The notes under the pieces were generated by a model. The model was not told the DNA's origin. It saw nothing but the letters and a program-made list of their open reading frames with translations, and did not search any database. Shown here piece after piece: positions 22,361 through 57,892 of a stretch of DNA of 64,000 bases (position 1 is its first letter; each line of letters starts with the position of its first letter). Origin of the DNA: Zasmidium citrigriseum (taxonomy: Eukaryota; Ascomycota; Dothideomycetes; Mycosphaerellales; Mycosphaerellaceae); assembly GCA_002786025.1 (NCBI GenBank), contig NHNW01000005.1:310001-374000 (forward strand), in the 5' to 3' direction. The translations under genes were made by a program, and so were the position numbers.

Positions 22361-24887
22361 ATGGATGATATTTTGGATGCAACTCGATACAGACGGACAA
22401 AGATATCTGGGAAGAGAACAACACACAGTCGATACCAGGGAGGGCTTGAAACATGGGTCAAAGTCAGACGTCTTGGTCAGGGTGGCTTTGGCTCAGTTTG
22501 GCTCGAGGAGGAGGAGGGTGGGAGAATTGGCGGCGTCCGTACGTCGACCTATTATATGTCCTGCATTGTGATTATGCTGACGACCTTCAGGGACAAGAGC
22601 TGTGAAGCATATCGAGAAATACGGGACCGCTGACAACTGCCGCAAAGAGATCATCGCAATGACCAAGTTGAGGAAACATGAAGAGTATTTCGCCTATTTC
22701 CATGGTTGGTACGAAGACGATGACTACATTTTCTTGGCGATGGACTACTTTCCATTAGGAGACTTGTCGCAATATCTTGATCTGGACCAGAAAATGCACG
22801 AGGACCAAGTCAGAGACCTCGCACGACAGCTGCTTAATGGGCTGCGGGCCATGCATAATCTGGGCTTCGCGCATCGGGACATTAAGCCTCAAAATGTGTT
22901 CGTGAAGGCCCGCTATCCGCCAGCCTGGCAAGTTCGCATCGGAGATTTTGGAATCGCGAAACGGGTGCAAGGTAACGACACCGAGCTCCGAACAGTGATC
23001 GGAACACCAAGATACATGGCCCCGGAGATGTTCCCTGAGATTGTCGGCGACGCTGCAAGTCACGCATATACGCAAGCCGTCGATGTCTGGGCACTCGGAA
23101 TCATGATTTATCAGATGCATGCTTTCCGAGTGCCTTTCTCTTCGCCAATTGCCATGCAAAAGTTCTACAACAATGAGATTGCTTTTCCTGACCACCCTCT
23201 GCAACTGGAACGAATCTCGCCTGCAGGTATTGGGTTTGTCAAGGCACTGCTTCAACCCATAGCGGCCGACCGACCGAATTCCACGGAAGCCCTGGATCAC
23301 GAGTGGCTGAAAGACGTTGTGTCAGAGGACCGCACAGTACAAGTTATGATACCTGCTATTCAAAGGTTCAAGAGAATGTCGTTTGACACAGCGACAGTCC
23401 GGAGAACTAACGCTTCGTCTGTTCAAGACACATCAGGCTCCGCGACTGCAAGATGGACGAGCGTATTGAACGGGGAGCCTAATGACGTTGGGACAGAACT
23501 GAAGGACCGCACAGTACAAGTTACGATACCTGCTATTCAAAGATTCCAGAGAATGTTCCAGAGAATGTCGTCTGACACAGCGAGAGTCCGGAGAACTAAC
23601 GCTTTGTCTGTTCAAGACACACCAGGCTCGGCGACTGCAAGATGGAGCGCATTGACCGGGGAGCCTGATGACGTTGGGAGAGAACTGACAGTACTGAGTA
23701 ACATAGGGCGTCCACGATCAGCTGCAGAGTCCCAGTTGCCGCCAACGAAGCCACACCGAAGTCAATGGACGGGAACGATACAGCTCAAGGGTCACACAAA
23801 TTTGGTGCGCTCTGTGGCGTTCTCACCGGACGGACGACTCGTGGCCTCGACTTCGGCGGACAAAAGTATACGGATCTGGGACATTACGACAGGGGAGGAG
23901 ATAAGATGTCTCAACGGTCACCTTGAAGCTTCGGTTGCATTTTCACCGAACGGACTGCGTCTAGCGTCTGGGTCCTCAAATGGGCCTATACGGCTCTGGG
24001 ACACCAGGACATGGACAGAATGGAAGCGGCTTGAGGGGAAAATCGTTCATTTGAATGCGGTAGCATTTTCTCCAGACGGACAATTCCTAGCCTGCGCGTC
24101 CGACAACCCTACTACAAGACTCTGGGATGTTGAGGCCGGGCGGGAAGAGAGTGGATTTGAATCACCTTATGGCCACATACACGTCCCCAAGTATCCACAG
24201 TCAGTGGCGTTCTCTCCGGATGGAAAATTCGTAGCATCAGTGTTTAAGGAGAGGGAGATAGTCATCTGGGACTTTGCGACGAGAGCGCATGTGAAGAAGC
24301 TGCACCCTAACGCTCGACAGGGTGAAACATCTATGGCATTTTCTCAAGACGGGCAATTTATAGCATCGGCTTCACACTTCGGCAGATACGGCAAGACCGG
24401 ATACAACGGGATTGTAAGGCTCTGGGACTGGCAGGCTGAACCAGGAAAGGAGGTGAGGCGATGCCAGCGCGGCTTGTGGACGCCAATGCGCTCCGTGGCA
24501 TTCGCGCCGGACGAAAAACTTATAGCATCTGGGTGCAAAGACGGAAAGATATGGCTCTGGGACTGGAAATCTGCGACAGATAAGGAGGCGAAACAGTTCA
24601 AGGCCCACACCGCTGAGGTGAACTCGGTTGCGTTCTCGCCAGATGGGCGGCTCATAGCATCCGCGTCAAGCGATCATACCGTACGACTCTTGGATTGGCA
24701 AGCTTACGAAGATTCGCCGCCTGTAAAGCGAGGATATTGGCACGCTTACGAAACTTCGCCGCCTGTAAAGCGAGGATGGATCAGAAACCTGGTGGAAGAC
24801 AAATCTTCCCATTCGACGATATACCCTACCTCCCTAGTCAGGCGCTCCCCCAGCCACCAGCTGTTCCCTTATTGGGTAGACGCTTAG
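22361..24887 (+). CDS. Ser/Thr protein kinase fused to seven WD40 repeats
   Basis: Two exons (22361-22538, 22591-24887) give 824 residues. The intron splits the N-lobe; joining it yields the ATP loop GQGGFGSVW, then AVKHI with Lys65. HRDIKPQNV (Asp156) and DFGIAK (Asp178) are intact, as is the GTPRYMAPE activation segment, so the kinase should be active. A linker of about 120 residues holds a 59-residue internal duplication. Seven WD40 units follow, with SVAFSPDG and RLWD-like ends, enough for one complete propeller. The C-terminus has a small PPVKRG duplication. Kinase-WD40 fusions on one chain are unusual in fungi. The repeats probably bind a partner that gates the kinase (inference). No transmembrane segment is present. 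Confidence 0.85.
23328..23690 (+). repeat. Tandem duplication in kinase-WD40 linker
   Basis: Unit 1 is 23328-23504 (59 codons), and unit 2 starts at 23505 with four extra codons (a repeated FQRM). Both begin DRTVQV(M/T)IPAIQRF and share RRTNA(S/L)SVQDT(S/P)GSATARW. This is a young duplication of the hinge between kinase and propeller. Confidence 0.8.
24702..24779 (+). repeat. 42-base duplication at kinase-WD40 C-terminus
   Basis: A unit starting GCTTACGAA and ending in codons for PPVKRG occurs at 24702 and again at 24744. It lies just after the last WD40 unit. Confidence 0.7.
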
Positions 24888-32276: not shown

Positions 32277-35200
32277 CTACACGTTCTCCCGAATCCAACC
32301 CCACAGCTTCAGAACACACTCCCGGTCAATCGGCTTCACCCTCGCCACAGACGGCATCGCCTCAAAAGTCCTGGACATCTCATACTCCTCCTGCACGGCA
32401 CCCTCTTCAGTTTTCTCCCCACCATACGCCTCCCTCCAAAAATCCAACAATTTCAAGCACGCATGCTCACTCCCACTCAGCCTCAACTCCTCCAACCTCG
32501 CCAACCAAGTCTTCGCCTCCACAATCTCAACCCCCTCCTCAGCCCCACAAACCCACTCGCAAACCTCTCTCCAACTCGTCCTCGTATTCTCGTTCAAGAC
32601 ATGCATCACCCTCAACCCATCTCCCTCTCTATCATCCCGACACAGTTCCACAAAGGCTTTTGCTGCAACATCCACCGGAACCCACTTCATCCCCATTTTA
32701 TCCCCAAGATCCGGCAAACACCCCACCCCCTTCGCCCTCGCCGACGCCAGCATCAGAGGCACAGCTTCGGACATATTCCAAACCCCACTCCCCTCATCCC
32801 CGCTCAACTGTCCCGCTCTCACGACATCGATCCTCATCTCTTGGAAGTGTTTCGATGCGGAGAGCAGGATATTCTCAGCAACCCATTTCGAGCGCGCGTA
32901 CCCAATACCCCCTTCACAGCTTTCCGGGTCCGTGAGGATCTTTTCCGGGTGGGTTTTGGTGGTGAGTGATGCGGTGCTGGAGCAAAAAACGAAATGCTTG
33001 GGCTGCAGAGAGAGGAGGGATTGCAGGCCGATGAAGTGTTGCTTGAACCCTTTGAGTGGGAGGACGAAGTCGACGCTCCAGGCTAGGTGATATATCACAT
33101 CAACCTCTTGCGCGAGGTAGTCGTAGGTTTCGGGTGAGAGGCCAAGGAGAGGTTTCGAGAGGCTGCAGACGTGAATTGTTACTTGAGAGGAGAAAGTTGG
33201 TGGGATGGGGAGGTTGCGGGATGTGAGCGCTTTGAGGACTCGCTCCTTTGCGGCTTGGGGCGTAGAGCCGCGGAGCAGGAGGTGGATGTGTACGTTCTGG
33301 AGGGTTAGGAGGTGGGAGAGGAGGTGCGAGCCGAGGGAGCCTGTTGGGCCTGTGAGGAGGATTGTTCGCTTCTTGTGGCCGTTGGTGCCGTTTGTCCGTG
33401 GTGGCGGGTGGATGGGGTTGAAGGTGCTGTACTTTGAGACGAGGTCGAGCATTGTCCGTTCGATGTCTTCGTTCTTTTGGGAGTTCAGCGGTTGGCCCTG
33501 CCTGATGTCGAGGACGAGTTGGCCGAGTCTGGAAATCGTTCCGCTATCTTGAACAATTGTCAGAGGCAGCGGTTTATGGCCTTTGGGAAGGAGTTGGGAC
33601 AGTGCTTGTCGTATCCGGACGCAGGCTATTGAGTCGACTCCGAAGGCGAAGAGGTCTGTTTCCGGCTCGAGGCTTTCCGAAGAATTGTTGCTCATGACAG
33701 AGTTGACGATTCCCAGAACCTTGCTCGGTATCTCGTCATCGGAGATGTCTCCATTCGACGCGGTCGTCTGATTGTATGCGGACTCAATCTCATCGGCATA
33801 CCTCTCCTCCGCCTTCCCCCTCAAAATCGTCCCCTTACTACTCTTCTCCAACGGCCTCTCACTCCACGGCATAGGAACCAACATCCCCCTCGCAACCCTC
33901 GCATGACTCTGGCTCTCTTTATTAAACCCCTCAACCTTCCCCCCAACAACCCCAATCACCTCCCCATCATCCATCCCCTTCGCCTCCTCCGACCGAAACA
34001 CCAACGCCCCCGGATACGGCCTCCCATTCCCGAAAACCAACACATCACTCAACACCCCCGTGGACGCAGTGATAGCAGCTTCCAGCGGCGACGGATCAAA
34101 CTTCTTCCCCGTCACAAGCGTAAGCTGCGCATCCGCTCTCGAATGATATTTCCACGCATTCTCAATCTCCGGATGTGGCTGGAACAGATCACTCGTCGCG
34201 AACGACCCATCTTCTCGATTCCGTTTCGACATATGGGGCCAGCCGTCCAGAATCACGAGTTCAGATAACCCGTCTTCTCGTTCTTCGAAACGGAGTTTAT
34301 CTTCCTGTGGGTCGACGCGGAGGTATTGCCATTCTTTGTCTTTGGCGAAGGATCGGTTCGAGGAGAGCAGGAATCCACATTCTGCGCTGCCGAATCGCGA
34401 GACGAGGTTTACGTTTTGTTCGACGAGGTTGTTGCCGATGCTGGCTGGGAGTGCGGCGCCGCCGACGCCTACGAGTGTCATTTTTTGGAGGTGATGGAGG
34501 CCGGTGGGGTCTTCGCTGAGCATTTCGAGGACGTAGGGGACGCAGCTGAGGAACTCCACGTTGCTGGTCCCTGCCTTCTCGGAGGCTTCGAGACATTTGA
34601 CCACGTTTCCTGCCGTGATGGGCACTTCTTTTCCTGGGAATAGCCAGATGAGTGCATGGCTTATCCACGCCCGGAACAGGTCTGCGATGCCGCCGTGGTA
34701 GAGAGGTGTCGTGGTGAAGGTTGCTTGCGAGCTGCCGTCGAAGGGGTAGTAGACGCCTGCGCCGGAGTTGTGCGTCTGAGGAATGGGTTTGGGGATTCCG
34801 GAGGATGTGCCTGAGGTGTGATGGAGGTAGGCTACGTCGTGGAGGGAGATGGTTTCTGTTTTTGGAGACTCCTTGATTGGCTCAACGATTGATTCAAAGA
34901 TCCCCTTATCTTTGAATGGTAAGGGGACGAGCTGAATCGTTCCTGACTCTTTTTGCGAGGCTGTGGCGAGTTCGGAGTAGATCTCATCGTAGACGATCGT
35001 TGAGCATTCGCATTGATTGCACAACTCTACAACTGCTTTCGCCGAGCACTGTGGTGCAATTAGTAGCACTGCATGGCCCAATCTCATCAAACCCAGCCAT
35101 GTGAAGAGGAAGTTCGCCGAGCTTGGACACAGCAGGGCGACAGTCTGCTTTTCAGGATCCTTGACATTGTCTGCAAGCTTTGACGCAAAGATGGAGGTGC

Positions 35201-35393
35201 CGTTAAGGACTTGTTGGAACGTTAGGACTTTGGTTCTCCAGGAGTCGTTGGGGTGATAGAAGCCAACTGCTGGGAGATCGGCGTAGTCACGGGCTTGCTG
35301 TTCGATGAAGGTGGGTATGTTGCTGAAGGGAGTGAGTTGTGTTTTGAGGCGGGATGCCTGGCCAAGGGTGCAGATGAAGTAGTTGAGGTCCAT
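32277..35393 (-). CDS. NRPS-like adenylation-thiolation-reductase enzyme
   Basis: Intronless, 1038 residues. The adenylation domain (about 25-520) has the AMP-binding loop HHTSGTSSGIPKP at 191-203 and a FGSAECGFLL core. The carrier domain has the phosphopantetheine Ser588 in FGVDSIACVR. The thioester-reductase domain (about 675-1038) has the NADPH loop TGPTGSLGSH at 681-690 and a YARSK catalytic pair (Tyr832, Lys836). There is no condensation or thioesterase domain. Such A-T-R enzymes activate a carboxylic acid, hold it as a thioester, and release it reductively as an aldehyde or alcohol. Its place next to the mycosporine cyclase suggests the acid is a mycosporine amino acid or its side-chain precursor. 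The substrate is inferred from context. Confidence 0.88.
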   Translation of the reverse strand: MDLNYFICTLGQASRLKTQLTPFSNIPTFIEQQARDYADLPAVGFYHPNDSWRTKVLTFQQVLNGTSIFASKLADNVKDPEKQTVALLCPSSANFLFTWLGLMRLGHAVLLIAPQCSAKAVVELCNQCECSTIVYDEIYSELATASQKESGTIQLVPLPFKDKGIFESIVEPIKESPKTETISLHDVAYLHHTSGTSSGIPKPIPQTHNSGAGVYYPFDGSSQATFTTTPLYHGGIADLFRAWISHALIWLFPGKEVPITAGNVVKCLEASEKAGTSNVEFLSCVPYVLEMLSEDPTGLHHLQKMTLVGVGGAALPASIGNNLVEQNVNLVSRFGSAECGFLLSSNRSFAKDKEWQYLRVDPQEDKLRFEEREDGLSELVILDGWPHMSKRNREDGSFATSDLFQPHPEIENAWKYHSRADAQLTLVTGKKFDPSPLEAAITASTGVLSDVLVFGNGRPYPGALVFRSEEAKGMDDGEVIGVVGGKVEGFNKESQSHARVARGMLVPMPWSERPLEKSSKGTILRGKAEERYADEIESAYNQTTASNGDISDDEIPSKVLGIVNSVMSNNSSESLEPETDLFAFGVDSIACVRIRQALSQLLPKGHKPLPLTIVQDSGTISRLGQLVLDIRQGQPLNSQKNEDIERTMLDLVSKYSTFNPIHPPPRTNGTNGHKKRTILLTGPTGSLGSHLLSHLLTLQNVHIHLLLRGSTPQAAKERVLKALTSRNLPIPPTFSSQVTIHVCSLSKPLLGLSPETYDYLAQEVDVIYHLAWSVDFVLPLKGFKQHFIGLQSLLSLQPKHFVFCSSTASLTTKTHPEKILTDPESCEGGIGYARSKWVAENILLSASKHFQEMRIDVVRAGQLSGDEGSGVWNMSEAVPLMLASARAKGVGCLPDLGDKMGMKWVPVDVAAKAFVELCRDDREGDGLRVMHVLNENTRTSWREVCEWVCGAEEGVEIVEAKTWLARLEELRLSGSEHACLKLLDFWREAYGGEKTEEGAVQEEYEMSRTFEAMPSVARVKPIDRECVLKLWGWIRENV

Positions 35394-35771
35394 GGTGGTA
35401 CGGGGAGTGGAAGGACGATCTCATGGAGGGGCATGAGAGCTCGGAGGGGCAGTCTTTGGAAGCTGGACCACAGAAACGTGACGAAAAAGAACGTGAAACT
35501 GCAAGAGACAGGTTCAATTGTCAAGAACGGCTACACAATCGAGGTTTTATCCTTAGTGACATCATAGATATTTCGAGCGCTTGGGAATGCTGGCAAGAAT
35601 AGTACAGATTTGCAGGGAGGGAAAAGAACATTTGCTTGAGTTGGAGATTTTGTCCTCGCCTCAAGCGAGGCTGAGGAAAGCCATTCACACCACGAATCTA
35701 CCAAGATACTTTTCGGCCGCGGTCTTGCCAACAGCCCGAGCTCAATCTATGAAGTGCTCTGCGCTGCCTAT
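35394..35771. other. Intergenic spacer in mycosporine cluster
   Basis: A 378-base spacer between the cyclase stop and the A-T-R start, both genes on the minus strand. It should hold the A-T-R promoter. No clear TATA box was found. Confidence 0.4.
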
Positions 35772-37403
35772 CTAGTGGACGCCGTTGGCGTGGCCATTGC
35801 CATTGACGATGTGGCCGTTAGGCTGGCCTTGAGTACCATCAACGCCCTCTGGTCTCGAGGCATGGTACTTCGCCTCCTTGACACCATTTGCCGCAACACC
35901 ATTGGCATGGCCGATAGCATGGCCATTAGTGCCATTCGATGTGGTATCGTCGTTCAGAACCTTCAACTTCTTGAGGTTCTCGCTAACACCATTCGTCTCA
36001 ACAGGCATCTGGTTCATGGTATACCCCGTATCCGAAGCATCAACAAAAGCCTCAATCCCCTCGCCCTGGCGAGGATAGCTCTTCATAACCTCCTTATGCT
36101 TCCTCAAGGCGGCGTTGAGTTCCTCCTGGCTCACATCGTTCAGGAAGACACACTTGCCAAGCGGGCTAGGGATGGCAGCACGGAGCTTGCCATCTCGGGT
36201 ACGGAGGATGGCTTGGGTGCCCTTTTCAAGAATCTCTTCGTTGAATTGGTGGTGGTCCATGGAGAGGCCGGCGCGGGAGAAGAGGTTGAGGAGACGCTTG
36301 TAGTCTTCGTCGGGGAGGTTGCCGCGCATGTGGGCCAGCGTGGCGGAGTAGGCCATGTCGATGGAGATAGCGTGGCCGTGGCGGAGAGGAACGTCGGGAA
36401 CGAGTTCGTGGAGGGGAGACCAGGTGTGGCCGTAGGCAATGACTCTGTCGAGGCCAATCTCATGGAGGTTGGGTGTTTCACTGGATCGATAATCAGTGCA
36501 ATTCTCACGAAGTCAAAATTGTGTCCTGCTTACAGCTTCAACATCTCGTGGATTGCGTCTCGGTTTAGGATGTCTGCAGCCTTGCGGACTTCAGGCGAGG
36601 CATTGTCTGTTCGACCGAACGCCGTGCCGATGATCTCTTCGCAGTACTTGTCAAGAGCATTGAAAGTCTTGATATCAGCACATGAGCTGATCTTAATGAG
36701 CTCTGCGAAACCGTTTCGTATTTGTGCTTCGGGTAGCGTTCTGAGGAAACCGAAGTCGAGGAACGTTCGGATGCTGCAATTGAATCCATCAGCAAAAGCC
36801 TTTGCCACTGACAGCTTTGTTGACTTACGGAGCGTGGTAAGCACCCAGGCGGTTCTTGTAGTTGCCGTAGTTGACTGCGACCTTGATGGAGACTGAGGCA
36901 TCGATGAGGCCGATCACGGTCGTAGGAATACGGATGTAGTTTGTGTTTCTTCTGTATGCTGCACATGCAAACCCAGCAACATCGGTAACAAGACCGCCGC
37001 CAATGACCAGCACTGGCTCCTGTAAAAAGTGTAAGTACAACCACATTCGTGTACTTGGAGGCTTATCACTCACCTTCCTGTAAATACCGAACTTGGTCAT
37101 GGAGTCGACGATGGAAAGGAACGTCTCAATACTCTTCGCCTTCTCGCCGATCATGGTCTTGTGGAGGTTGAGCTCAATGTTGTGGTGCTCAAAGTACTGC
37201 TGCATCTCCTCGCCGTAGAGATTGAAGATGTTGGTGTCCATTACGGCCAAGCATCTTCCCCATCTCTTGTAGCAGTCTGCAAGACCGGTGTTCTTCTTGT
37301 CGAAAACACCGTCAATGAAGTTGAAGTCATATTCAATCTTCTCGTACCCCTCCACATGGAAACCGTCGGCACTAGGTGCCACGGTAGCTTTCATATCAGA
37401 CAT
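35772..37403 (-). CDS. mysA: Sugar-phosphate cyclase, 2-demethyl-4-deoxygadusol synthase type
   Basis: Four exons (37403-37074, 37019-36829, 36773-36534, 36480-35772) give 489 residues. The dehydroquinate-synthase-like fold is clear: the NAD-binding VIGGGLVTDVAGFACA, then RIPTTVIGLIDASVSIK, the metal-ligand region GFAELIKIS, YGHTWSPLHE and RHGHAISIDMA. The family cyclises sedoheptulose 7-phosphate. Members beside an O-methyltransferase and an ATP-grasp ligase are demethyl-deoxygadusol synthases; the alternative, 2-epi-5-epi-valiolone synthase, is close in sequence. True dehydroquinate synthase is unlikely because fungi use the AROM protein. The last 55 residues are an odd Asn/Gly/His-rich tail (NGTNGHAIGHANGVAANG). 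The symbol is borrowed from cyanobacteria. Confidence 0.92.
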
Positions 37404-38476
37404 GATTGCGGTTGTGGTTCTTCTGTAATGAAAGACAGAAGACCTAGAATCAAGAGAGAGAAAAATCAGAGTGTTGACAGGAACTCGTCAACAAAAGTGA
37501 GAGGTACCAGGTACCAATAAATAGACCCTTCGCTGGGGGAACGCGAATCGTGACGCGACTACCTGCGGCCGACTTTCACCGGCAGCACAAGAGCATTCAG
37601 GACCCAAGAGTCCCACCACCTGGCGTGGTTGATTGGCGTTTGCAGGCACGACCCCTCATGAGCAAGGCGGGATGGTTCACTCGTGCAGCCTCTGGTCCCT
37701 GTCCTGACCAAGATTTGTCTCGTGAAAATCACGCAATGGCTTGGAGGCTTGCCAGATGGGTGTTGGATCTGTTCGAGCAATGCACTCGATCGAAGGTGAT
37801 GATGTATTACATGCTCGGTAGATGGCCGGCAGCTTGAGGTGCAGTCAAACGGGATGAGGTGATTGGGTTGGAACGGAGGCGAAGGGTTCCTAAACGTGCC
37901 GGTTCCACGTTGCGAGGAGTTTCGAGCGGCTAGTCGCTGCTTCTTCAGGCAAGGTGTTCATCTGCAAGATCCTAGCGCGAGACTTCTTAGATTGAGTTTG
38001 TTGATCTCGGAGGACATCCCGTGCAAGACCGATTCCGAGTTGTGGCGAGAACAATTCCATTTCACTAATCTTTATGCTGGACAGAAAGAGGATTCATAAT
38101 GATATGATCATCGATCTTCCAGCCTTCGGTGACATTCCACATGATGAAATGTACTCGAAGTCCAAGTGCAAGTGTCCAAAACACCTCTGCCAACATGTGG
38201 AGACCTTGCACAACATGTACGCATCAAGAAGCTGTCATCGAATCTGCACGACGAAAAGGCTTTTTCTCCGCATTCCTCCAGCTCCCCACCAGATGCCTCG
38301 CCCTCGCTCCAAGCCAAGAATACCGAGATCTCAGACGCTGCAAGGGCGAGGTATGCGATTGGCGGGACCTGCATAATCATGCATCATTACATGAGGGGTT
38401 GGAGCTCGCTGTGTTTGCGTTTGAAAACAGTGTTTGGTAACAGCAAAGCTCGAGAACATCATTTTGTAGATCAATC
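37404..38476. promoter_or_regulatory. Divergent promoter region of mycosporine genes
   Basis: A 1.07 kb spacer between the cyclase (-) and the O-methyltransferase (+). On the cyclase side there is a direct repeat GGTACC at 37503-37508 and 37510-37515, directly beside a minus-strand CTATTTATT TATA-like box (37516-37524), 110-120 bases from the cyclase ATG. The rest shows no clear element. Shared control of both arms, for instance by light or stress, is inferred from the arrangement. Confidence 0.5.
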
Positions 38477-39365
38477 ATGGCTGAAGAACGGTCTGGCAGA
38501 AAGTTCGACAACGAGAAGGGGTATCAGCAGAAGGGAGAGACATACGTTCGTAACTTCGCTTGCAGTTCGGATCGAATGCTGACAAGCTAGTTCGACGATG
38601 GTCGTGAAGTCGAGCTTCTGCACTATGTGTACGATCGAGCCGAAGAGACTAGAAACTCGCCATCTGGTGTCCTGGCAGCGATAGACGAATATGGACGAAC
38701 GAAGAATTACCTCATGAACATTGGAGAATATAAAGGCAAAATCGTGACCGACCTCATCCAAGAACATAAGCCAAAGACCCTGGTTGAACTTGGTGGCTAC
38801 ATCGGATACTCTTCCATTCTTTTCGGCGAAGAGTTCAAGAAAGCTGGCGGGAAGCGCTACTTCACTCTCGAAAGCAGCCCAGAGTTCGCCGCGGTGATCA
38901 TGGCGTTGGTGAAGCTCGCCGGGTTGGACGACGTGGTCGAAGTCTTGGTGGGAGATAGCGGTGCATCTCTGGAGCGACTGCATCGCGAGAAGAAATTAGA
39001 TCATGTCGATATGCTCTTCATCGACCACATCGAGTTTGAAAGAGACACCAAGCTCTGTGAAAGGTTGGGTCTGATTTCGCCAGGCACGATGTTGGTTGCC
39101 GATAACTGCGTCTATCCCGGCCAGCCTGAGTACTGGAGCTACGTTACTGCGGATGTGCAAGAGAAGAAGGCCGCGTTCAACAGGGAGGAAGATCCAAGGA
39201 AGAGAGGGAATCCATATCTTGTCTATGAGAGCAGGTTAGCAGAAGGATGGGAGCCGAGTGGAGAAAAGGTGAGAGAGAAGATATCTCGGGCTTTGATACA
39301 TGCTGACTGCCATTTAGGATGCTGTTGGTATATCAAAATGCGTTCAGGATACTGAGAAGTCGTGA
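38477..39365 (+). CDS. mysB: SAM-dependent O-methyltransferase of the mycosporine pathway
   Basis: Three exons (38477-38545, 38591-39268, 39318-39365) give 264 residues. The short first exon MAEERSGRKFDNEKGY joins to FDDGREVELLHYVYDRA. The catechol-O-methyltransferase-like fold shows SAM motif I LVELGGYIGYSSILF, an acidic motif II YFTLESSPEFA, and the metal-site region VDMLFIDHIEFERD followed by VADNCVYPGQPEY. In the pathway it would methylate demethyl-4-deoxygadusol to 4-deoxygadusol. The last intron restores a short Lys-Ser tail. The gene runs in the same direction as the ATP-grasp ligase 427 bases downstream. Confidence 0.88.
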
Positions 39366-39792
39366 TCCTTGCAGCACTTGCTCATCTCGCAGCCTGGTAT
39401 TGCTCGACGGCCATTGGCTGAGCAAATCTCACAGTTGCCCAAAGAGGACGAGTCTGAGTTCCCCATTCACTTCACTCCATCACCAGGCTCTGTATAGTAT
39501 TCGAATGTATCAAAGTCCGGCACTGAAGCAAACGTAGTCTGTAGCTCTGAAAAATAGATCCATCAAAATTTGGTTCTTCTCGCGCCAAAATGACCTTGCA
39601 TGACACAATCCCCAAGCCGCCCATGTAAGCGTCATCGAGCTCCACTCTTTCACGCGCTCGTCACCATCACGTGCTGGGCGTTCGGTCTCGCTCGCTTGGC
39701 ACAAGGAAGGGTCCTCTTGTGATGCATGAGAGACTTTCGGCATTGAATTCGTTCAGAAAGCCCATTGACTTCGTCCCAATCAGAAGTCCAAC
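39366..39792. other. Intergenic spacer in mycosporine cluster
   Basis: Lies between the O-methyltransferase and the ATP-grasp ligase, both plus strand; it presumably holds the ligase promoter. No other feature seen. Confidence 0.4.
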
Positions 39793-41256
39793 ATGCTGGA
39801 CGGAACGTCCTCACGGACGGCACATATTCTACAGAATGCCGCACTCATCCTGCTCCACATCGTAGCCCTGCCAATTACATTGACGACCGTCTTGCTCAGT
39901 TTGGCCATTGGGAAGCTTTTGCGTCTTCAAAATGGCGCAAGAACGATCATGCTACCACCATCAAAACGGAAAACCGTCCTCGTCACAGGCGTTGGCATGA
40001 CCAAAGGTCTTACTCTCGCAAGATCATTCCACAAAGCCGGACACAGAGTGATTGGAGCAGACTTTGAACCGAATGAGGCATTGTCGCCAGGACGTTTCTC
40101 GAATTCCCTAGCAAGATTCTACCGCCTTCAGAAGCCGTCGTCAAATCATGGATCTGGTAAATACATCCAAGGGCTGCTGGACATCATTCGAAAAGAGAGT
40201 GTCGATCTTTGGGTCAGCTGCTCAGGTGTTGCATCTGCAGTGGAAGACGGCGAAGCCAAAGAGATCATCGAAAACAGAACAACATGCAAAGCGATCCAGT
40301 TTGACGTGGCAACGACTCAGACCCTTCACGAGAAGCACACATTCATCCAGCAGGTCCAAAGATTCGGATTGAACTCCCCCGAAACTCATACCATCACGTC
40401 CCACGGAGAAGTCCAAGATGCCTTACGAAATGCTGCTTTTGGACAGAAGTACATCATGAAGCCCATTGGAATGGACGACTCGGCGAGAGGAGACATGACT
40501 TTACTGCCGAAGGCGACTTGGGAGGAGACGCTGAAACATGTCAACGGACTGAAGATATCGAAGAAGAACCCGTGGATTTTGCAGCAATTTGTTCGTGGGG
40601 AGGAGTTCTGTACTCACTCATTGGTGATTAACGGCAAGGTCAAGGTCTTTGTCAGTTGCCCGTCATCGGAGCTATTGATGCACTATGGGGCATTGCCGGT
40701 AACTTCGCCGGTGCATGTTGCGATGAGGCGGTTCACAGAACGTTTTGCTCAAGCGTATGGGCATGGCTTCACGGGGCACCTGTCTTTCGATTTTCTTGTC
40801 GAGGACACAACCCCGAAAGAAGCGGAGAAGATCAGGCTCTATCCTATTGAATGCAACCCAAGGGCCCACACAGCCGTGGTGTTATTCAGCGACACGCCTG
40901 AAATGGTGGCTGCATATCTCAGCCTGTTGGACAAGGAAGCAGATCCTGGCGAGATCGTCACACCTTTACGACCGAAGAACTACTACTGGATTGGACACGA
41001 TTTGGTCGAGAAATCCTTTGTTCCATTTTGGCATCTCCTGCTCATGCGAACTTCTTTTAAGGAATGTCGACAACACAGTGAGACGCTGGCCACGCACTTA
41101 CTGACCTGGAAAGACGGAACATTTACTTTGGATGATCCTTTACCATTCTTGGCGTTGTACCACTTGTACTGGCCGGTGCAGTTTCTGAGTTGTATCCGGC
41201 GTGGAACGAGGTGGAGTCGACTGAATGTATCGACGTTGAAGATGTTTGAATGTTGA
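39793..41256 (+). CDS. mysC: ATP-grasp ligase of the mycosporine pathway, membrane-anchored
   Basis: Intronless, 487 residues. A hydrophobic segment at about residues 17-42 (ILLHIVALPITLTTVLLSL) should anchor the protein to a membrane. A nucleotide-binding-like VLVTGVGMTKGLTLARSF starts the soluble part. The ATP-grasp core contains KYIMKPIGMDDSARGDMTLL, WILQQFVRGEEFCTHS and the metal-binding LYPIECNPRAHT. MysC-type ligases activate 4-deoxygadusol with ATP and join it to an amino acid (glycine in cyanobacteria). The amino acid used here is unknown; glutamine or glutamate would fit fungal products. An upstream shorter start is not needed. The symbol follows the cyanobacterial pathway. Confidence 0.9.
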   Translation: MLDGTSSRTAHILQNAALILLHIVALPITLTTVLLSLAIGKLLRLQNGARTIMLPPSKRKTVLVTGVGMTKGLTLARSFHKAGHRVIGADFEPNEALSPGRFSNSLARFYRLQKPSSNHGSGKYIQGLLDIIRKESVDLWVSCSGVASAVEDGEAKEIIENRTTCKAIQFDVATTQTLHEKHTFIQQVQRFGLNSPETHTITSHGEVQDALRNAAFGQKYIMKPIGMDDSARGDMTLLPKATWEETLKHVNGLKISKKNPWILQQFVRGEEFCTHSLVINGKVKVFVSCPSSELLMHYGALPVTSPVHVAMRRFTERFAQAYGHGFTGHLSFDFLVEDTTPKEAEKIRLYPIECNPRAHTAVVLFSDTPEMVAAYLSLLDKEADPGEIVTPLRPKNYYWIGHDLVEKSFVPFWHLLLMRTSFKECRQHSETLATHLLTWKDGTFTLDDPLPFLALYHLYWPVQFLSCIRRGTRWSRLNVSTLKMFEC

Positions 41257-55861: not shown

Positions 55862-57288
55862 CTACATCAACACCTTCTCACACCCCAAATTCCCCAATAC
55901 AGGATCCAACCTCCCCGCCAAAAACGCCAACGCATCCCTCGACGGCACCAGCACAGAATTCAACGACGACGGCACCGCAAAACTCGCAAGCTGATAAATA
56001 AAACACAGCAACTCAGCCGGCTGAACCGTAGGTGCAATAGTCCCATTCTTGATCGGACCGAGATCGTTGGGTAAAGCCAGAAATGTGCCGTCTGCTGTGT
56101 TGCCGCCGATGAGGACCGGGTTGCGGCGGTACATGTCGAGGATTTGGAGGGCGAAGGGTGGGCCCTATGTAAGTGTGTTAGGGGTTGGGATATAAGTGTG
56201 TGTTTGTGGGGAGGACTTACGAGTAGTGCTGTGGCTCTATTTGTCCAATTCGGGGGGATCCGCTCGTCAACGAAGAATGATTGAATCGTTTCTAGATCGG
56301 GTGTGTAATTTCTTGTGCCGGAGGGCATTAGTTCGTAGAGGAAGACTGCGGCGCCGTAGAGGATCACACCGAAGGGACCGACTGTTGTCATCAGCGAAAG
56401 CCCGTGCAATTCGGGAGGGTGCGCACAGAAGAAATTCCTGTTCTCGACTCGAGATTCCTGCCATCGCTGCTTGCGGTAGAGAGACAGGCCTGCGACGTCG
56501 AAATTACCACGCGTCACTTCTGCCATTCGATCGAAGAGCGTATGGTTGAAGCTGAAATTGTCTCCGTTGGAGGTGAAGTAGTCGTTCCGCGTGAGGGAGG
56601 TATCCATCTCGAACCTGTTTTATGTGCCGTTAGTCACGACCACTTGGGAGGCTACTGGCATGCTTGATGATTACTTGTTATGTCCGTTCAAGCCAGGCTC
56701 ACTCCCCGTGAGAATAGGATTAAACGACGTCCGTTGCGTCGACTCACATCCGATGGAAAGCTTCGTGGTAATGACATCGCCGTCTTCGACTATACCCACA
56801 AGGGCGAGACCCAGGGCAATGTCGTAGCCAAGGTTGAACACATTTTGCTGCGCGTCCATCAGTTCGACGAGATCTGTGAGTCCCGAACGGCTGATGAAGC
56901 CATGGTTTGCAAGAGTGTTGAGACCTGGGAGCTTATGGTCAGGTCGAGACGTAGACAATATGCAATGGCGGCAGAGCGAACCTGGACATGGCCCCCGAAT
57001 ATCCTGCGCCGTTGGCGCTCTCCATTCGTGGTCAGTGTCGCCGTCGGCAGGCACTTTGTAGCCTCCCAGGCCTGTACCTGGAAGTCCTTCTCGGGCATGA
57101 TTGTAAGGAAAGTCGGGGTTAAAGGGAACAGCTGGTTGAGCATCCGCCGGGTTGGGACACTGTTTGGAGTCTCTCGGCAGAGGGGTGTTGTGATCAACGG
57201 AAACTTTTGAAGGAGAGGCTGAAGTAACAAAGGAGAAGCCGGAGACGACCTCTCCGAATATGAGGAGTGCTGCGATTGCAATGCTCAT
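55862..57288 (-). CDS. Secreted heme-thiolate peroxidase, copy 2
   Basis: Four exons (57288-56982, 56924-56675, 56614-56221, 56164-55862) give 417 residues. A signal peptide (MSIAIAALLIFGEVVSGFSF) and a Pro-rich spacer precede IRGPCPGLNTLANHGFISRSG, with the heme ligand Cys101. FEMDTSLTRNDYF is the acid-base region. It resembles the copy at 12.4-14.0 kb throughout (KLSIGCESTQRTSF vs KLSIGCDATSRTAT; YELMPSGTRN vs YELMPTAGGI). It has three introns in place of six, and the usual Gly of the E-G-D motif is Met (Ala in copy 1). The first intron has an atypical GTTCGC donor and is a multiple of three; reading through it would insert 19 residues between Cys101 and LNT. Confidence 0.88.
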
Positions 57289-57892
57289 GGTATTCGTTTG
57301 GATTGAGGGGCGGAATGTGGTCGATGGCGACGTTCACACTTATACCTGACGGCTGTGAGAATTGCCGGGCTGGAGAAGAATGGATAAACCGGATCATGGC
57401 CAGACATCGTGCTGTCTAGTATACTGTAGTGTCTTTTAGGTCAAAGTCCTGGATCAGACCGCGTTCAACAAACTATCGAAGACAGCAGAATATGGAAGGA
57501 GTCCTCAGTATTGACCAATCAGACAGCTGCGGAGAATCAGCAAAGCCACTTGCGTAACAGTGCATAAGCTGTAAGGTATAGAAACTCACCAGGCACTGCG
57601 TTATCTTATTAGAGAAGGCCTGCGCTATCCAGATAAAGCGAAAATATTCATCGCTTGTGGACTCTGCGCTGGTCCGAACAGGCCTATGAGCGGCCGCTGA
57701 CTCGTCATCGTCGACAGGAGCAAAGCCTCTAGTCGACTCTTGGACATATCAGGCCAGTGATCGAGAGTATTAGATGAAAGAGCTGGCGGGCATCGCCTGA
57801 ATTTGACGAAGCTCGTTTGGGCCAGCCCACTTGGCGCGAACCATCCCAAACTACATCAGGCTGGGCATCGCAGCAGATCGACGGCCGTCGCA
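57289..57892. other. Intergenic region between divergent genes
   Basis: 0.6 kb promoter region; no distinct element seen. Confidence 0.4.

Follow-up and report, generated by a model that had tools for sequence, protein, structure and literature searches.

A predicted four-gene mycosporine cluster in Zasmidium citrigriseum, with a putative carboxylate reductase as candidate for the amino-alcohol step

The window analysed here is a stretch of 64,000 nucleotides from the ascomycete Zasmidium citrigriseum, located on contig C94 of a 44.4 Mb assembly (G000). At positions 32277–41256 it carries four intact, closely spaced genes. On the reverse strand are those for a predicted adenylation-carrier-thioester reductase protein (ATR) and a predicted demethyl-4-deoxygadusol synthase (DDGS, a sugar phosphate cyclase), and on the forward strand those for a catechol-O-methyltransferase-like O-methyltransferase (OMT) and an ATP-grasp-type ligase (ATPG). 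The preliminary description of this DNA noted a cyclase, an O-methyltransferase and an ATP-grasp ligase beside an adenylation-carrier-reductase (A-T-R) protein, and the gene models and domain searches bear this out. We propose that this is a mycosporine cluster, in which ATR probably reduces the carboxylate of a mycosporine-amino acid to an amino alcohol. That ATR belongs to the mycosporine pathway is very probable, because its linkage with the ligase and DDGS recurs in other fungi, and because DDGS and ATR share a history that is not that of the species tree.

Fungal mycosporines were the first members of this class of sunscreen compounds to be found and, unlike the cyanobacterial ones, they often carry an amino alcohol. 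A literature search, which covered subscription papers thinly, found no A-T-R or other enzyme assigned to the amino-alcohol reduction of fungal mycosporines. The three-gene core was already known; what is new, and well supported, is that ATR orthologues lie beside mycosporine genes in other fungi. ATR appears to be the best candidate for the amino-alcohol step; its association with the other genes is well supported, and its reaction is predicted. It provides a concrete single-gene candidate for the reduction in fungal mycosporine synthesis. If the proposal is correct, the fungal pathway would be complete up to glucosylation, and there would be a defined route to amino-alcohol mycosporines.

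By analogy with established homologues, DDGS and OMT would convert a pentose-phosphate sugar to 4-deoxygadusol, to which ATPG would join an amino acid. ATR would then use ATP to activate the α-carboxylate of this mycosporine-amino acid (mycosporine-glutamine or -glutamate being the probable substrate), move the activated acyl group onto its phosphopantetheine arm, and use NADPH to release the group as an alcohol, mycosporine-glutaminol or -glutamicol. The substrate, the order of steps, the two rounds of reduction and the product are all predicted from sequence, and the role in amino-alcohol formation would follow from the chemistry of the domains together with the reduced products known from fungi. 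The first carboxylate to arise in the core pathway appears to be the one on the added amino acid, and an acid-activating enzyme at this point would therefore have few possible substrates.

The core genes are considered first. DDGS (37403–35772, reverse strand) encodes 489 residues and has three introns (37073–37020, 36828–36774 and 36533–36481). The open frames spanning its exons match the Pfam families DHQ_synthase and DHQS_C. In comparison with proteins of solved structure it scores 501 bits to 5tpr and 237 bits to 4p53, which we take to be a cyanobacterial DDGS and the 2-epi-5-epi-valiolone synthase ValA, respectively; the remaining matches, all but one of them dehydroquinate synthases, score at most 114 bits. 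This ranking points to a demethyl-4-deoxygadusol synthase rather than to either of the two related cyclases. OMT (38477–39365, forward strand, 264 residues, introns at 38546–38590 and 39269–39317) adjoins DDGS, matches Methyltransf_3 in Pfam and is COMT-like. All of the introns are GT-AG, and the reading frames of the spliced models are uninterrupted from end to end.

ATPG (39793–41256, forward strand, one exon, 487 residues) was less straightforward. A Pfam scan gave no match, to ATP-grasp or any other family, and no solved relative was found at E < 0.1. It matches the NCBIfam model PRK06849 with an E-value of 4e-70, at 236.7 bits and thus under the cut-off of 406 bits, and several homologues among the best 120 of 1422 matches carry the name 'ATP-grasp domain-containing protein'. 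It is from these names and the sub-cut-off match that ATPG is identified as the putative ligase of the cluster, completing a predicted DDGS-OMT-ATPG mycosporine core. Two of the ligase homologues, P0122 (624 residues) and P0188 (743 residues), exceed the usual size; P0188 also contains methyltransferase domains, and P0122 is named by one source as a catechol O-methyltransferase. Long ligases of this type are probably OMT and ATPG models fused by annotation, in which case OMT and ATPG would lie next to each other in those genomes.

The closest named relatives among the matches listed come from Zasmidium cellare (Mycosphaerellaceae), with identities of 91% for DDGS, 71% for ATPG and 63–64% for ATR. 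Within its own genome, DDGS finds its own exons and one stretch of 29% identity, and ATPG one match of 24% elsewhere, so that neither has a close second copy. OMT has a second locus outside the cluster (G000:C70:175804-176470, reverse strand), matching in two pieces that are 53% and 67% identical.

ATR is encoded by a single exon (35393–32277, reverse strand) and is 1038 residues long. Pfam identifies AMP-binding, AMP-binding_C_3, PP-binding and NAD_binding_4 domains, that is, an adenylation (A) domain complete with C-terminal subdomain, followed by carrier and thioester reductase (R) domains. The window protein was aligned with 29 sequences chosen from 120 listed homologues, and the residues that we take to be catalytic are intact and invariant in all 30. 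These are S194, E338, D402, R419 and K520 in the A domain, Ser588 in the carrier, and G682, G685 and G688 (the NADPH loop), Ser805/806, Y832 and K836 in the R domain. The intact NADPH loop and Tyr/Lys pair noted in the preliminary description are thus a constant feature of these proteins. By its domains and catalytic residues ATR is best placed in the class of fungal A-T-R carboxylate reductases, and it has the domain order, AMP-binding_C_3, NAD_binding_4 and catalytic residues in common with enzymes such as the Neurospora carboxylate reductase (CAR). The known fungal A-T-R reductases belong to unrelated clusters and use aryl or other acids as substrates; the ATR clade differs from them in that it recurs in mycosporine clusters and has a conserved N terminus and A-domain motifs of its own. 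It falls short of the cut-off for L-aminoadipate reductase (Lys2), scoring 103 of 1030 bits with NCBIfam TIGR03443, and a separate Lys2-like open frame (judged by eye) is present at G000:C88.

Clusters for mycosporine-like amino acids (MAA) in cyanobacteria and actinobacteria (MysA-MysB-MysC with MysD or an enzyme resembling non-ribosomal peptide synthetases, NRPS) likewise combine a cyclase, a methyltransferase and an ATP-grasp ligase with a fourth enzyme that handles amino acids. The NRPS-like MAA enzyme adds a second amino acid and terminates in a thioesterase. ATR differs from this arrangement in its terminal NAD_binding_4 thioester reductase, and the fungal products have a single substituent. 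Hypoxylaceae clusters described as 'mycosporine-like' have an NRPS-like core gene (PMC8403587), so that an association has been noticed earlier. Their assignment was based on resemblance to a cluster from an actinomycete, and in the available text of that paper no reductase domain is credited with a part in amino-alcohol formation.

The A domain provides clues to the acid that is activated. In NRPS A domains, the Asp of motif A4 binds the α-amine of amino acid substrates. The corresponding motif of ATR is PLYHGG, with Gly234 in the Asp column, preceded by His233; the Gly is present in all 30 aligned sequences. At this site Phe-Asp or Trp-Asp is found in three NRPS-type A domains from the same genome; the seven other acyl-ligase-like (non-NRPS-type) frames and the five other A-T-R proteins compared carry His and then a non-acidic residue. 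ATR therefore lacks the mark of an NRPS-type amino-acid A domain. In a profile search its best solved relatives are 4-coumarate CoA ligases (4CL), with a fatty acid transport protein also found; of the NRPS A domains for amino acids, LgrA ranks immediately above an acyl-ACP synthetase, with surfactin synthetase further down. Searches of PDB sequences found no close relative of the A domain with a known acid substrate. The missing Asp would favour an acid that has no free amine. Mycosporine-glutamine and mycosporine-glutamate, in which the nitrogen is tied up in the ring enaminone, would fit. This is why we favour these substrates over free glutamine or glutamate. The preliminary description had ATR turning bound glutamine or glutamate into the alcohol: its place in an amino-alcohol route gains from the linkage and shared history described below, but a bound mycosporine-amino acid is now the likelier substrate. 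Five residues beyond the A4 His is an Asp (Asp238), found in 30 of the 30 aligned ATRs; at this position Asp is absent from the other five A-T-R proteins of the genome, one of which has Glu. Asp238 is possibly a clade-specific substrate contact.

The order of steps could also be reversed, with ATR first reducing free Gln, Glu or Ser, and the ligase then attaching the resulting glutaminol or glutamicol to 4-deoxygadusol. Amino acids are known substrates of some fungal A-T-R enzymes, and the authors of the work on the yeast Phaffia rhodozyma state that the ligase incorporates glutaminol, and depict the final step in this way (PMC10057719). The acyl-ligase-like A4 motif of ATR, in contrast to the Asp of the three NRPS-type domains, argues against this, as does the closeness of the A-domain profile to 4-coumarate CoA ligases, although the fold matches of the predicted structure are mixed (EntE, CAR, SrfA-C and 4CL) and include NRPS A domains. 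Furthermore, free mycosporine-glutamine is found in fungi, as expected of an intermediate (PMC4665425). We consider the reversed order unlikely, and continue with reduction on the finished mycosporine.

The linkage of ATR with mycosporine genes was examined in other fungi, using the best 120 of 908 protein matches for ATR, 120 of 1422 for ATPG and 120 of 3276 for DDGS. The comparison covers all 120 rows for ATR and for ATPG, and 56 of the 120 for DDGS; as a proxy, locus tags and an equal size of the longest contig were taken to indicate the same contig. ATR and ATPG could be compared in 14 named species, and lie on one contig in nine of them: Zasmidium cellare, Fulvia fulva, Dothistroma septosporum, Cladophialophora chaetospira, Cl. 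psammophila, Exophiala spinifera, E. bonariae, Fonsecaea erecta and Knufia peltigerae. Sequential tags allowed the distance to be counted in seven of the nine, and it is three genes in Zasmidium, E. bonariae and Fonsecaea, four in Cl. chaetospira and E. spinifera, five in Knufia and eight in Cl. psammophila. Seven further contigs also carry both genes. An eighth match, on a contig of 3739 bases, was dropped as a coincidence, being too short to hold both. Also set aside were E. xenobiotica, Fonsecaea multimorphosa and Zymoseptoria tritici, where strains or tag prefixes differ, together with E. viscosa and one pair from Septoria with an incomplete species name.

In two Exophiala species DDGS directly adjoins ATR (tags 08763 for ATR, 08762 for DDGS and 08759 for ATPG in E. 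spinifera; 012358, 012357 and 012355 in E. bonariae). These belong to another class, the Eurotiomycetes, and their gene order is compatible with the ATR-DDGS-(OMT)-ATPG order of the window. Co-occurrence of ATR with the other genes, suggested earlier as a check, is thus seen in both the Mycosphaerellaceae and the Chaetothyriales, where ATR recurs beside the ligase and, where visible, DDGS. Among the matches listed, nine species of other Dothideomycetes have ATR and DDGS on one contig.

The distribution of products can be compared with that of the gene. Fungi are reported to contain mycosporine-glutamine, -glutaminol, -glutamicol and -serinol (PMC4665425). Mycosporines are also reported from Knufia petricola A95, a laboratory strain of a rock-inhabiting fungus for which genetic tools exist (PMC10512386). 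Mycosporine-glutamicol-glucoside is reported from Ascochyta pisi, Cladosporium herbarum, Septoria nodorum and rock fungi, so that glutamicol-type mycosporines are known from the genera Ascochyta and Cladosporium (PMC4665425). Species of both genera, as well as two of Knufia, are among the best 120 of 908 ATR matches, and an orthologue in another species of Ascochyta and of Cladosporium is counted here as support for the proposed role. Colletotrichum makes mycosporine-alanine and, as Glomerella cingulata, also mycosporine-glutamine (PMC4665425). No Colletotrichum protein is present among the best 120 of 908 ATR matches, and several are among the best 120 of 3276 for DDGS, which is suggestive only that this maker of mycosporine-alanine may do without ATR.

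Phylogenetic analysis gives a second line of evidence. A tree of DDGS from 52 of the 120 listed matches and the window protein groups the Mycosphaerellaceae with the Chaetothyriales, with support of 100/99; Zasmidium and Hortaea belong to the same order, Mycosphaerellales. Forcing the Mycosphaerellaceae together with 13 other capnodialean rows, mostly Teratosphaeriaceae, was rejected by the approximately unbiased (AU) test (p-AU 0.00018). Neohortaea, Cryoendolithus, Patellaria, Chrysothrix and Glonium, all of which were in an earlier quick tree, were not in this test. A second tree, with these five rows restored and 18 of the 26 other rows of the first test, gave the same grouping with support of 100/100 and weaker p-AU values of 0.0044 and 0.0047. 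In the tree of ATR (36 of the 120 listed matches and the window protein), a branch with support of 100/100 parts the Mycosphaerellaceae and Chaetothyriales from all other sampled Dothideomycetes, and placing the Mycosphaerellaceae with eight other capnodialean rows was rejected with p-AU 1.4e-5. The groups tested were defined after sight of the quick tree, which makes these p-values somewhat optimistic. DDGS and ATR are unlike enzymes, and since they share one conflict with the species tree, the trees point to the two having been inherited together, through transfer or ancient duplication and in either direction. This would be a case of a photoprotective pathway moving, or being anciently retained, between fungal classes.

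Some individual rows of the ATR tree should be mentioned. One Zymoseptoria row is on a long branch. The two ATRs of Elasticomyces elasticus (P0011 and P0081) are split, one with Exophiala and one with Aureobasidium, and the Knufia peltigerae ATR (P0063) groups with Exophiala spinifera, not with Knufia obscura. The genomes behind these three proteins are possibly mislabelled or mixed.

Several observations weigh against the proposal that ATR makes the amino alcohol. The first comes from Phaffia, whose MYC cluster has a compact DDGS-OMT-ATPG arrangement, as here, and is reported to yield mycosporine-glutaminol and its glucoside (PMC10057719). As described in the available text, this cluster has no A-T-R gene, unlike the window, and no enzyme is assigned to the formation of glutaminol. 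When the three Phaffia genes were expressed in Saccharomyces cerevisiae, with no reductase supplied, a peak was obtained that co-migrates with Phaffia mycosporine-glutaminol (PMC10057719). This result speaks against the need for a fourth enzyme, at least in Phaffia. Identification of the peak relied on its absorption spectrum and retention time, and a search of the available paper for terms of mass spectrometry gave nothing in its methods; a chromophore spectrum would not be expected to distinguish the glutamine from the glutaminol form, which differ by 14 Da. There are three possible readings: baker's yeast carries out the reduction, the compound is unreduced in Phaffia and baker's yeast alike, or the ligase uses an amino alcohol made beforehand. 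It is because of this three-gene result that we regard the reduction by ATR as probable and go no further.

The same result could mean that the fungal amino alcohol comes from a different enzyme, such as the baker's yeast activity or an A-T-R protein of the ChNPS10 type with an additional short-chain dehydrogenase/reductase (SDR) domain, and that ATR is redundant or makes a minor product. Across 18 Dothideomycetes ChNPS10 is conserved, and mutation of the gene causes sensitivity to oxidative stress (PMC3516569). The available texts of PMC2823734 and PMC3516569 do not report it beside mycosporine genes. The Z. citrigriseum genome holds at least five other A-T-R genes, the nearest paralogues of ATR being 33–34% identical, with no close second copy. 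Five of these frames also have AMP-binding_C_3 and NAD_binding_4, and none of the five as scanned has a second SDR domain, although one hidden by an intron would escape. We therefore think it quite improbable that a different enzyme is responsible, and retain ATR as the candidate.

ATR itself was considered as a possible ChNPS10, given that a Fulvia fulva homologue is named 'Nps10', but this was rejected: ChNPS10 is described as having a second SDR domain (PMC2823734), which is absent from ATR, and it is by this description that the two are set apart. Nps10 of C. fulvum has been called a pseudogene (PMC3895014, PMC3510045), and the name of the Fulvia homologue and ChNPS10 probably denote different genes. 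Elsewhere in the genome, at G000:C118:155189-159429 (L018, L020), a reductase-only frame adjoins a frame with an A domain, a carrier and then a major facilitator transporter; this pair is possibly a split A-T-R gene.

The second point concerns the extent of reduction. A search with the single ATR sequence gives the terminal R domain of myxalamid MxaA (4u7w/4w4t) as the best match for the R domain, narrowly. The predicted structure, which served for domain matching, has a mean pLDDT of 74 and is weak in parts of the A domain; MxaA and CAR domains rank first in fold, the MxaA R domain being the best match, with an identity of 22–23%. The MxaA terminal R domain releases an alcohol, derived from an amino acid, and this match counts in favour of the proposal; unlike ATR, MxaA is part of a bacterial polyketide synthase-NRPS. 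Alignment of the ATR profile with solved structures ranks the R domain of Neurospora CAR (8aep) first, over MxaA, and the same search finds MxaA and, from the A subdomain onwards, bacterial CARs as well. Nor does the sequence separate two-electron from four-electron R domains here. The Neurospora enzyme produces aldehydes. A-T-R enzymes have been described as aldehyde generators (PMC9605436), and ATR might similarly stop at the aldehyde or otherwise modify the mycosporine, for example to a cyclised or conjugated aldehyde, with general reductases of the cell giving the alcohol. The mycosporines named from fungi in PMC4665425, in its available text, include alcohols and no aldehyde, and we would not expect an aldehyde-forming ATR to be the correct explanation, although it merits consideration beside the direct release of an alcohol.

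The third point is that the association is not universal. ATR and ATPG are on different contigs in five of the 14 species, all of them Cercospora or Pseudocercospora (Pseudocercospora fuligena, P. eumusae, Cercospora berteroae, C. zeina and C. zeae-maydis; the ATR tag of P. fuligena is not visible, and the same assembly was assumed). E. viscosa, where they are again on different contigs and the ATPG tag is not visible, is a possible sixth exception. In the nine other Dothideomycetes with ATR and DDGS on one contig, the gaps that can be counted are 76, 69, 140 and 112 genes, with 250 tag units in Neocucurbitaria; these distant pairs are from the Teratosphaeriaceae and Pleosporales. Hortaea, Aplosporella and Bipolaris oryzae have the two genes on separate contigs. 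In the second DDGS tree, the protein of Neohortaea acidophila (P0335, Teratosphaeriaceae) falls on a long branch among the Chaetothyriales, possibly through a second transfer or as an artefact. The ATPG tree gives p-AU 0.0064 against a grouping of the Mycosphaerellaceae with two Teratosphaeriaceae-type rows, which do not themselves group together, and it contains too few comparison taxa for a clean view of the same conflict.

The five unlinked species, and the presence of at least five further A-T-R genes with no assigned roles, would be in keeping with a function for ATR in some other pathway, its mycosporine neighbourhood being incidental. Against this stand the close linkage in two classes, the compatible gene order, and the phylogenetic conflict that ATR shares with DDGS, which together make such a function very unlikely.

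These considerations can be combined with the preferred function of ATR in a wider and more tentative scheme, which as a whole we regard as possible but would not yet favour. As a late tailoring enzyme, ATR would load finished mycosporine-glutamine or -glutamate onto its carrier domain and release it by four-electron reduction, so that in many ascomycete mycosporines the amino alcohol would be formed on the chromophore rather than on the free amino acid; the 'glutaminol' peak of the three-gene yeast would be unreduced mycosporine-glutamine; and clusters with ATR would have moved as a unit between the Chaetothyriales and the Mycosphaerellaceae.

Within the window, DDGS and OMT are divergent and separated by an intergenic region of 1.07 kb (37404–38476), which by its position is a possible shared promoter region for the two genes. 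A Pfam scan of 24 flanking frames matched some of them to domains with no visible link to mycosporines, and there is no glucosyltransferase among the matched frames. Two neighbouring frames at 55963–57333 (reverse strand) match separate parts of Peroxidase_2 and are possibly one gene split by an intron. At 22581–24884 (forward strand), a protein kinase domain and WD40 repeats are fused in one open frame.

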